The notes beneath the pieces were generated by a model. That model worked only from the letters and a program-made list of their open reading frames with translations, was not told the DNA's origin and made no database searches. From positions 1 to 34,430 of the forward strand of contig JAMONM010000038.1 in assembly GCA_027065825.1 (NCBI GenBank): a stretch of 34,430 nt of DNA, in the 5' to 3' direction. Both the position numbers and the translations under genes were made by a program. This DNA comes from Campylobacterales bacterium. GTDB lineage: Bacteria > Campylobacterota > Campylobacteria > Campylobacterales > Nitratiruptoraceae. This document shows positions 3,637 to 33,997 of this stretch, piece by piece (position 1 is the first letter of the stretch; each line of letters starts with the position of its first letter).

Positions 3637-4530
3637 ATGAATCTTACCGCAGATATCGCCGAAAGGAACGTAGCCGTTTTTAAAAACGGCAGATTCGACT
3701 CGCCGTTGGATAGTACGAGAGAGTTTGGGTTGAGAGATATCATAAAATGGATGTTGACTCCAAAACCGAAACGCGGATCCTCCAAATGCGTAAAGTGCTC
3801 CGAGGATTTCGGATTGAACGGAGTATGCTGGTTTGGGCACGCCACTTTTTATATAAGAGTGAACGGTTTTCATTTGATGTGCGATCCGGTTTTTTTCGAT
3901 ATTCCTTTTCATAAACGGTCCGTAAGGTGCGATTTGCTGGATAGAATAGAGCGTGTGGACGCCGTTTTGATATCGCACAGTCACTACGACCATTTGGATC
4001 TCAAAAGCCTTAAAGAGCTGATTTCTCGATTCGATCCGCTATTTATTGTGCCTAAAAAAACCTCTTTGCCGGCAAAAGCGAAGGTCGTAGAGATGGAGTG
4101 GTTCGAGTTTATAGATTTTGGGGCTCTTAGAGTAATCTTTTTTCCGGCCAAACACTGGAGCTCGAGAAGCTGGCTGGACAAAAACAGATCTCTTTGGGGA
4201 AGTTTTATGATAGAGGGCGAAAAGAGTATCTTTTTTGCCGGAGACAGCGCTTATGCGCACCACTTTTCAGATATATCCAGACTCTGCGAGACGGATATCG
4301 CGATTTTACCTATAGGCGCTTATAGTCCCGAATATCTCATGTCTCATAGCCATATGAATCCGTATGAGGCGCTGAAAGCATTTTACGATTTGGGCGCCGA
4401 TGTGTTGATTCCTATGCATTACGGAGTTTTCGATCTCTCGCTGGAGCCGCTTTGTGAACCGTATGAAGTGATGAAAACCGTTTTTTCTAAAGCCGAATTT
4501 CTCAATATAGGAGAGTGTTATACATGGTAA
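3637..4530 (+). CDS. MBL-fold metallo-hydrolase (NAPE-PLD/UlaG-like), paralog A
   Basis: WFGHATFYIRVNG, DPVFFDIPF, ISHSHYDHLDLKSLK (HxHxDH), FAGDSAYAHHF, PIGAY, HMNPYEAL, HYGVFDL. ATG at 3637 follows the dprA stop; the track start at 3610 would overlap dprA. Confidence 0.92.
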   Translation: MNLTADIAERNVAVFKNGRFDSPLDSTREFGLRDIIKWMLTPKPKRGSSKCVKCSEDFGLNGVCWFGHATFYIRVNGFHLMCDPVFFDIPFHKRSVRCDLLDRIERVDAVLISHSHYDHLDLKSLKELISRFDPLFIVPKKTSLPAKAKVVEMEWFEFIDFGALRVIFFPAKHWSSRSWLDKNRSLWGSFMIEGEKSIFFAGDSAYAHHFSDISRLCETDIAILPIGAYSPEYLMSHSHMNPYEALKAFYDLGADVLIPMHYGVFDLSLEPLCEPYEVMKTVFSKAEFLNIGECYTW

Positions 4531-4886
4531 AGAAAATGACTTTGGGCGAATACGCGAAAAAGATGCGAAAAAGCAGGTACGAAATAATCAGAATGTGTCT
4601 TAGAGGGGAATTGGAGTGCCAAGAAGAGATCGAAAACGGCAAGAAGGTAACCTATATACTTCTAAAAGAGGAGACTAACGATAAAAAAAGCGAGAATAAC
4701 GGGCTTTTAAGTATCATTAAAACTCGAAATAGCGAAGTTTCGCGAAATTTGATAGAGCTGTTGGAGAGTGAAAAACATGATATTTTCTACAGCCACGGCG
4801 AGTATTATATCTATTTTCCGCTTTTGGGTAGAGCTTTTAGGGTATTAGAGGAGAACAAGAGCGTATCAGAGCTTAGAAAGCTCTGA
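4524..4886 (+). CDS. small hypothetical protein with putative N-terminal MerR/excisionase-like HTH
   Basis: Track ORF 4515-4886; ATG at 4524 overlaps the MBL stop (ATGGTAA) and has GGAGAG upstream. LGEYAKKMRKSRYEIIRMCLRGELECQEEIENGKKVTYIL resembles excisionase-type winged-helix spacing. Confidence 0.65.
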   Translation: MVKKMTLGEYAKKMRKSRYEIIRMCLRGELECQEEIENGKKVTYILLKEETNDKKSENNGLLSIIKTRNSEVSRNLIELLESEKHDIFYSHGEYYIYFPLLGRAFRVLEENKSVSELRKL

Positions 4887-4899
4887 TACTATTTTTTTT
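4864..4899 (+). terminator. intrinsic terminator embedded in the 3' end of the 4524-4886 CDS
   Basis: Perfect 11-bp inverted repeat TATCAGAGCTT-AGA-AAGCTCTGATA (4864-4888), then CTA and T8 (4892-4899). Confidence 0.8.
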
Positions 4900-5041
4900 C
4901 GGTGGAGTGGTGATCTTTATGCTCTATGTAATCTTTTTTGATCATCTCTTTTTCCCCCTCTTGGAACCAATAGGGGTTGAGATACTCAGAAGCAAAGCTT
5001 ACGGCAGCAAAAGCGAAGATTCCCAAAAGAACTTTTTTCAT
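4889..5041 (-). CDS. small secreted/periplasmic protein, 50 aa (absent from ORF track)
   Basis: Manual translation: MKKVLLGIFAFAAVSFASEYLNPYWFQEGEKEMIKKDYIEHKDHHSTEKK*. GGAGG ribosome-binding site just upstream (TAAGGAGGCATTATG), Sec signal-peptide-like N-terminus ending at ASA-type site, TATAAT upstream. Confidence 0.8.
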   Translation of the reverse strand: MKKVLLGIFAFAAVSFASEYLNPYWFQEGEKEMIKKDYIEHKDHHSTEKK

Positions 5042-5063
5042 AATGCCTCCTTATATTGTTTAT

Positions 5064-5082
5064 GAGAATTATACTCATTATT
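5064..5082. promoter_or_regulatory. Fur-box-like sequence overlapping the -10 of the 50-aa gene
   Basis: GAGAATTATACTCATTATT matches 15 of 19 positions of the classical GATAATGATAATCATTATC; minus-strand TATAAT lies at 5068-5073. Confidence 0.5.
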
Positions 5083-5084
5083 AC

Positions 5085-5113
5085 TTAAATAGGACTTAAT
5101 TTATCCTATTTAA
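5085..5113. promoter_or_regulatory. inverted-repeat operator candidate between the 50-aa gene and htrA-like gene
   Basis: TTAAATAGGA-CTTAATTTA-TCCTATTTAA: perfect 10-bp arms with 9-nt spacer. Confidence 0.55.
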
Positions 5114-5138: not shown

Positions 5139-6236
5139 ATGAGGCTTTACAAAGTAGCGCTTCTGTCTTTTTTGTTGGTTATTGTTTTGGCGACATTGTG
5201 GCGTATCGTACCGATTTTGGAGAGTCGTTTCGCATCGGTTCCCAAGACCGTCGTACCGCGCGGAGAGCTTAGCCGGCTGGAGCGAAGCAATATAGAGATT
5301 TTTGAAAAGAGCAAAGATAGCGTAGTGTACATATCTACACTGAAACAGGTTGTGGATATTTGGAGTATGACGCTTTTTGACGTTCCTAAAGGAACGGGTA
5401 GCGGATTCGTTTGGGATTCTTTCGGACATATAGTCACCAATTATCACGTTATCCAGGGAGCAAGCAGAGCCATGGTACGTTTAAGTAACGGCAGAGATTA
5501 CGAAGCCGTTCTCGTAGGGGCCGATCCCGATCACGATCTGGCCGTTTTGAAAATCGATCCGGTACCGGGAGTGATGAAGCCGGTCTCTTTAGGAAGCAGT
5601 TCGGATCTGAGAGTAGGGCAGATAGTATACGCTATCGGTAATCCCTTCGGACTAGACTGGACTATGACTATGGGAATAATTTCGGCGACAGACAGAGTCA
5701 TACACGAGCCAAACGGAGTCAAGATCAAAAACGTAATACAGACCGATGCGGCCATAAATCCCGGAAACTCCGGAGGTCCTTTGCTTGACAGCGCAGGAAG
5801 GGTTATAGGAGTAAACACGGCTATTTATTCTCCTAGCGGAGCCAACGCCGGTATAGGATTCGCTTTGCCTATAGATCTGGTAAATAGGGTGGTTTCCTCT
5901 TTGATATCGTACGGATATTATAAAAAGTTGACTTTGGGAATTAAGAGCGACGAGAGACTCAACAGATTACTAAAAAGAAAATTTGGAATTTCGGGTGTGG
6001 CGGTTTTAGGGGTTGAACCCGATTCAATAGCGGCTATGGCAGATATAAAACCGGCACGTATCTATTCGGACGGATCGATAGAGTTTGGAGATATAATAAT
6101 AGCCGTAGATTCGATTCGAGTCTCTTCGCTGAACGATCTTGAAGAGCTACTAAGTAAAAAAAGCCCGGGAGACAAGATTGTTCTTAGTTTAAAAAGAGGA
6201 TCTGAAAGAGTCGATATAGAACTGAGAATGCCCTAA
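5139..6236 (+). CDS. S1C (HtrA/DegS-like) serine protease, TM anchor, trypsin-like domain and one PDZ
   Basis: Triad contexts TNYHVIQGA, DPDHDLAVLKI, AAINPGNSGGPLLD; C-terminal single PDZ; N-terminal TM; RBS GGAGAGGAG. Confidence 0.93.
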   Translation: MRLYKVALLSFLLVIVLATLWRIVPILESRFASVPKTVVPRGELSRLERSNIEIFEKSKDSVVYISTLKQVVDIWSMTLFDVPKGTGSGFVWDSFGHIVTNYHVIQGASRAMVRLSNGRDYEAVLVGADPDHDLAVLKIDPVPGVMKPVSLGSSSDLRVGQIVYAIGNPFGLDWTMTMGIISATDRVIHEPNGVKIKNVIQTDAAINPGNSGGPLLDSAGRVIGVNTAIYSPSGANAGIGFALPIDLVNRVVSSLISYGYYKKLTLGIKSDERLNRLLKRKFGISGVAVLGVEPDSIAAMADIKPARIYSDGSIEFGDIIIAVDSIRVSSLNDLEELLSKKSPGDKIVLSLKRGSERVDIELRMP

Positions 6237-6951: not shown

Positions 6952-7096
6952 GAACGCTCCTTTCTGTTTTTAAAGAAAAATTTTTTCCTTTGATACATTA
7001 TTGCACTAAATACCTTATCGGTAGATTAAATCGTTTTCAACATATAGAATAAAACTATTTTTTAAATAAAAATTGTTTAATAACTAAATTATGCAG

Positions 7097-33543: not shown

Positions 33544-33945
33544 CTACTCCATTAAATCTTGAAGAGTCAGCTCCTCAAGAAAATTGTCTATTCTGTTTTG
33601 AAGCTTGTTCAAAAAGGGCCAAAGCGTGCAAAAACTTCCCTTGTTGCTGGGGCAGCAGGCTTGATCGGGGGAACAGTCGAATACGCTGATATTTTTTCCT
33701 TCGGCCGATTCGGCTATCTCCTTTATAGAGAGCAGGCCCGGCTCCTTTGCCAGCATGAAGCCTCCCGTGGCTCCTTTGAAGGATTTCAAGATTCCCTTTC
33801 TGGCCAGATTTTGCAAAATCTTGGCCAGAAAACTTTTGGGAATGTCTAGCTGCCTCGAGAGCGTGTCGGTACCCATAGGTTCGTTTCGTTTCGCTATCAG
33901 TATCAAAGAGAGCAGCGCATATTCCGTGGCTCTGGTAAAAAGCAT
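33544..33945 (-). CDS. Rrf2-family transcriptional regulator, probably Fe-S type
   Basis: LFTRATEYALLSLILIA..., LDIPKSFLAKILQNLARKGILKSFKGATGGFMLAKEP, Cys cluster DCSPDQACCPSNKGSFC. Confidence 0.92.
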   Translation of the reverse strand: MLFTRATEYALLSLILIAKRNEPMGTDTLSRQLDIPKSFLAKILQNLARKGILKSFKGATGGFMLAKEPGLLSIKEIAESAEGKNISVFDCSPDQACCPSNKGSFCTLWPFLNKLQNRIDNFLEELTLQDLME

Positions 33946-33971: not shown

Positions 33972-33997
33972 ATTATACAAAAATTATCCTATTTAAA
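33972..33997 (-). promoter_or_regulatory. Rrf2-gene promoter region with -10 and conserved half-site
   Basis: Minus-strand TATAAT (33972-33977) preceded by TTTAAATAGGATAA (33984-33997), identical to an arm of the 5085-5113 repeat. Confidence 0.5.

Follow-up and report, generated by a model that had tools for sequence, protein, structure and literature searches.

The stretch of DNA analyzed here, 34,430 nt of a Campylobacterales contig (further referred to as the window), carries an overlooked ORF for a 50-residue microprotein with a predicted Sec signal peptide. We consider it rather probable that this exported protein, a member of a family with the hallmark [LVIF]NPYWF[QE][ED], belongs to an Rrf2/IscR-like Fe-S regulon, is derepressed upon cluster loss and acts by docking through its aromatic motif. 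A small secreted protein had been proposed at this place in the first-pass annotation, and that interpretation is supported by the sequence comparisons below. The family motif and the predicted membership in the Fe-S regulon are new.

Identification of the microprotein gene

4889–5041, minus strand: ORF of the 50-aa microprotein, MKKVLLGIFAFAAVSFASEYLNPYWFQEGEKEMIKKDYIEHKDHHSTEKK*; exact translation, in-frame homologs, purifying selection

The ORF had been reported as complete and uncalled, and both its coordinates and its translation match exactly. Given that 12 kb yield a list of 58 ORFs with 45 aa or more, an open frame of 50 codons is in itself no evidence. This ORF stands above chance because it is conserved, as are its ribosome-binding site (RBS), −10 box and palindrome. 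In-frame homologs are found in three other species of the same genus (E = 1.5e-20, 3.9e-20 and 2.6e-15), and a more distant one in a second genus of the same family (E = 4.2e-7); the reading frame, whose conservation had been suggested as a check, is thus kept in all of them. Gap-free alignment of 41 codons from four congeneric species gives a pN/pS of 0.03–0.40, i.e. change is mostly synonymous, with synonymous sites near saturation relative to the window species. Length changes in the alignment fall only after the motif.

The promoter region contains the following elements.

5046–5052, minus strand: RBS AAGGAGG, 4 nt upstream of the ATG; AAGGAG conserved in four species
5068–5073, minus strand: −10 box TATAAT, 26 nt upstream of the ATG; sequence and conservation
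5062–5078: invariant palindrome ATGAGTATAATTCTCAT enclosing the −10 box; cross-species conservation
5070–5075, plus strand: TATACT, which may be an overlapping −10 box for the htrA-like gene; from sequence only

The strong GGAGG site and the TATAAT noted at the first pass are both present, and few parts of the locus are as well conserved as the promoter, with the RBS, the −10 box and the upstream palindrome all kept. This strong conservation of the control region in its own right would suit a conserved promoter or leader RNA in which the frame is open by chance. Such an explanation is extremely improbable, however, since change in the coding part is biased to synonymous sites, the frame is maintained up to the motif and beyond it apart from the length changes, antisense frames of the ORF are interrupted by stop codons in relatives, and homologs occur at other loci under different promoters. 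By these comparisons, the overlooked 50-residue ORF is a genuine gene.

The palindrome ATGAGTATAATTCTCAT has −10-like boxes on both strands and looks like a symmetric bidirectional promoter. It also resembles a Fur box, but has no other close copies upstream of the iron genes of this genome; it is better read as the overlapping −10 boxes of a putative bidirectional promoter.

The candidate operator and its motif

5089–5109, unstranded: candidate Rrf2/IscR-like operator ATAGGACTTAATTTATCCTAT, a 21-bp palindrome 15 nt before the microprotein −10 box; de novo motif

The palindromic form of this site, AAATAGGA-N9-TCCTATTT, has few close matches genome-wide. The two best ones outside the locus lie upstream of genes for a desulfoferrodoxin-type superoxide reductase and an Mrp-type Fe-S carrier. 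In related genomes the box was found upstream of sufB, nifS (nifS_epsilon), sufE, a NifU-like gene and mrp, as well as superoxide reductase, tpx, thiG and Rrf2 genes, and in G000, G001 and G003 the matches to the box pattern with zero mismatches precede sufB, nifS, superoxide reductase or tpx. In genomes of f7, another family of the same order, boxes precede nifS, tpx, di-haem cytochrome c peroxidase-like and ferredoxin-like genes, named by inspection. Such lists by resemblance are partly circular, as this locus is where the box was originally spotted. Compared with a reversed-pattern control, the number of matches is clearly higher in G009 (17 vs 2), with no clear excess in the AT-rich G002 and G003; given this unevenness, functional coherence weighs more than raw counts.

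We therefore put more weight on a palindromic 21-bp motif learned de novo by expectation maximization from 25 upstream regions of Fe-S and redox genes (sufB, nifS, mrp, superoxide reductase, tpx and rrf2 types), with the microprotein and htrA promoters left out. Its consensus is ATAGGATAAAATTTATCCTAT. In the 34-kb window the site at 5089–5109 ranks first with 19.0 bits (the third site scores 4.9), a result in which circularity is lessened rather than removed, as the training loci had been fetched through such resemblance matches. The null probability of a score of at least 18 bits is about 7e-7 per position.

The box precedes eight of the nine microproteins of the window type, found in eight genomes of two families (G000, G001, G002, G003, G005 with two boxes, G046, G441 and G439), with scores of 13.8–23.2 bits; the ninth is the second copy in G441 (0.3 bits). 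None of the upstream regions of six other relatives is boxed, all scoring below zero with the de novo motif. There is likewise no box before htrA in ten htrA loci lacking the peptide, where the best score is −0.7. The operator thus goes with the microprotein and not with htrA.

The operator is placed 15 nt upstream of the −10 box both in the window and in G005; in f7 it precedes the ATG by 21–23 nt and falls between the apparent −10 box and the RBS. Both arrangements fit repression, which we infer as the regulatory mode. The box resembles the experimentally footprinted motif GAC-N7-GTC of the Rrf2 protein RisR (PMC9973013), and in P. aeruginosa IscR represses tpx via a comparable site (PMC6599224). 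Taken together, the predicted membership of the microprotein gene in an Rrf2/IscR-type Fe-S regulon is well supported.

Several further boxes were noticed. Rrf2-type boxes lie upstream of or beside napA-like genes (periplasmic nitrate reductase) in G007 (L112, about 1485–1505) and G005 (L116, about 1486–1506). In f7 a box with zero mismatches precedes a gene for a conserved small membrane protein starting with MxIPKxxTLxYIxILG (L148, L149 and L150). With the first matrix, a site before a ferritin-like gene in the window (6971–6991) reached 10.6 bits; it is not among the four best-scoring positions that the de novo motif gives for the window, and was not counted.

The proposed regulator

33544–33945, minus strand: Rrf2-family regulator, best named relative IscR, proposed repressor; Pfam Rrf2, 1.6e-29
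33972–33992, unstranded: operator of the rrf2 gene itself, ATTATACAAAAATTATCCTAT, over its −10 box; second-best site of the window

The regulator has candidate Fe-S ligands at Cys91, Cys97/98 and Cys106. Its score against the IscR equivalog model, 59 bits, is below the cut-off of 207, and hence we call it IscR-like rather than IscR. The box before its gene scores 14.0 bits with the de novo motif, whose training set included this upstream region, and boxes are likewise present before rrf2 in the relatives L117, L131 and L140. We propose that the gene is autoregulated through the box covering its −10 element, and that its product is probably the regulator of the microprotein gene. This protein is likely the master of the Fe-S regulon, apparently undescribed for this lineage in the literature searched.

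The similarity to the known IscR and RisR regulons extends to a palindromic operator before suf, nifS-type and tpx genes and the regulator's own gene, to a regulator with Cys ligands and to the location of the site over promoter elements. Those regulons comprise genes for cluster assembly and redox functions in the cytoplasm, along with iron or virulence genes, whereas a recurrent exported microprotein with a repeated motif is a target undescribed for them in the literature searched.

The exported peptide and its family

4991–5041, minus strand: Sec signal peptide MKKVLLGIFAFAAVSFA, by inspection; equivalent sites in relatives
4958–4981, minus strand: family motif LNPYWFQE, residues 21–28; N, W and F invariant in nine members

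The signal-peptide-like N-terminus described at the first pass bears inspection: all nine members have a basic n-region, a hydrophobic core and small residues at −3/−1, as expected for Sec export. The likely cleavage site SFA/SEYL (residues 17/18, by inspection), with SFA/GEYL, SYA/SEYV and LFA/SDAN as counterparts in relatives, would leave a mature protein of about 33 aa. The microprotein is accordingly predicted to be exported via Sec to the periplasm.

The nine-member alignment is anchored on M1, N22, W25 and F26. The aromatic patch YLNPYWF of the first-pass annotation turned out to be the family hallmark, which starts a few residues into the mature protein, right behind the signal peptide, and is present in one to three copies per relative, standard or degenerate. 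In the paralogs L024, L025, L006 and L007 it occurs twice, about 25 residues apart. The f7 versions are longer (84–108 aa) and combine two copies of GDFNPY[WG]F with degenerate YAYE and NAYSFDE units; a profile of this type, run on 299 genomes of the order, matched only the f7 genus and one Nitratiruptor-type paralog. A scan of 397 genomes from the class found the DNA pattern for NPYWF[QE][ED] in 8.

The family had not been recognized from the sequence at first, and we found no match to it in Pfam and NCBIfam at gathering cut-offs, none for the family profile among solved structures (PDB) and no paper in a literature search with the motif string. Judged by these searches, the family is lineage-restricted and previously undescribed. 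The AlphaFold model has no globular fold (pLDDT 64, a low confidence with only nine sequences available); its sole structured parts are the helix of the signal peptide and possibly another at residues 30–46.

Two-motif paralogs also exist outside the regulon. Those of L067, L070, L071 and L072, which adjoin AsmA-like genes, share with the microprotein the signal peptide layout and NPYWFQE (twice), but occupy a different locus and have no Rrf2 box. In Nitratiruptor-type genomes two-motif paralogs sit between genes for a response regulator and a 7TM-type sensor.

The charged, His-rich tail, the remaining trait ascribed to the peptide earlier, is peculiar to the window species and absent from relatives. 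It bears on the idea of a His-rich periplasmic peptide binding iron, copper or nickel, for which one could cite the HKDHH of this tail, control by an iron-linked regulator and the acidic and Tyr residues, which could bind ferric iron weakly. As the same gene in G001, G002, G003 and G005 has no His cluster and the family has no conserved Cys or His, we regard metal binding as quite unlikely.

Release to the outside as a pheromone-like signal or a bacteriocin is very unlikely. The protein is small and exported, and weak matches to Phr/NprX pheromone models exist; however, the NprX match of the window protein, 13.2 bits against a cut-off of 33, covers only residues 1–14, i.e. the signal peptide. 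Moreover, in the neighborhoods compared the gene is not visibly accompanied by any gene for a transporter, immunity or a receptor, and the regulon is of the Fe-S/redox kind.

Genomic neighborhood and the HtrA-like protease

5139–6236, plus strand: divergent HtrA-like serine protease with an N-terminal membrane anchor (by inspection), a trypsin-like domain and one PDZ domain
4515–4886, plus strand: convergent conserved gene with a helix-turn-helix-like look; neighbor of the microprotein gene in two genera
4863–4889, plus strand: terminator hairpin of the convergent gene, a 12-bp stem followed by T8; from sequence

Divergence from the htrA-like gene with a common control region, pointed out at the first pass, is kept across the genus (four species). 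In the genus-wide layout the microprotein gene diverges from that of an anchored HtrA-like protease with a single PDZ domain and converges with a gene of the 4515–4886 type; in this comparison of neighborhoods G002 is an exception, having a cytochrome c-like gene between the two. The nearest named relatives of the protease are labeled Nitratiruptor or Campylobacterota, which places the window in that deep-sea-vent neighborhood. In G005 the convergent neighbor is retained and htrA is not adjacent to the microprotein gene. The microprotein is absent from all ten named htrA loci examined, and in several of them the convergent-type gene directly abuts htrA.

The gene at 4515–4886 has no family match, its start resembles a DNA-binding excisionase-type protein, and genes of this type adjoin the microprotein gene or htrA across the family. 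Its terminator overlaps the end of the microprotein ORF, so that the T8 tract forms, on the opposite strand, the last Lys codons.

Outer membrane protein (OMP) tails activate DegS through an aromatic tripeptide bound by the PDZ domain. DegS and AlgW bind C-terminal YxF/WVF (PMC8545111). The operator might serve the protease, and the microprotein might be its activating ligand, as MucE is for AlgW, a DegS-type HtrA protease, or OMP tails for DegS. Like MucE, the microprotein is small, exported and has aromatic residues, including a YWF within the motif; the divergent pair is kept in four species, and the adjoining protease has the anchor, the protease domain and the single PDZ domain of DegS and AlgW. 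We nevertheless hold this role to be unlikely. MucE signals via its C-terminal WVF, whereas in every member the YWF lies inside the chain and no sequence has an aromatic tripeptide of the MucE/OMP type at its end, the C-termini being STEKK, TSKK, ISKK, DSNS, FQEEK etc. Nor is the protease a constant neighbor: the boxed microprotein gene has no htrA beside it in G005 and in family f7, and the ten htrA loci mentioned above have neither peptide nor box. HtrA is a possible docking partner, though not the one we favor.

Proposed mechanism

The explanation we prefer, an exported docking peptide of the Fe-S regulon, would work as follows. When Fe-S clusters are plentiful, cluster-loaded Rrf2 protein would occupy the 21-bp operator and repress transcription. 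This site overlaps the microprotein gene's −35 region and likely the transcription start of htrA. Rrf2 proteins of this kind lose repression upon loss of the cluster, and so the peptide should appear under Fe-S damage or shortage. Oxygen or superoxide stress or a shortage of iron would lift repression in this way, so that the microprotein would be induced alongside suf, nifS, mrp, superoxide reductase and thiol peroxidase. The mature peptide of about 33 aa would reach the periplasm mostly unstructured and, during stress, would use its aromatic-acidic motif to dock onto a partner in the envelope or periplasm.

The combination of no predicted fold with an invariant and often repeated aromatic-acidic motif makes such docking the most likely action among those considered, although taken by itself it has somewhat less than an even chance. 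It is the weakest step of the explanation, drawn solely from conservation and repetition of the motif. The microprotein is probably an envelope arm of a response to Fe-S repair needs and oxygen damage. A broader and rather doubtful extension is that Fe-S regulators can carry an envelope arm in which secreted microproteins with NPYWFQE repeats would bind and adjust a periplasmic redox enzyme, a respiratory complex or a stress protease, thereby relaying cluster failure outward.

An ORF below a calling cut-off of 60 aa can thus belong, as a conserved member, to a core stress response. Here an undescribed family of secreted microproteins would join a regulon otherwise made up of genes for cytoplasmic cluster assembly and detoxification. 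The operator, the regulator gene and the invariant NPYWF core may serve as handles for studying envelope protection in vent-type Campylobacterota upon destruction of Fe-S clusters by oxygen.
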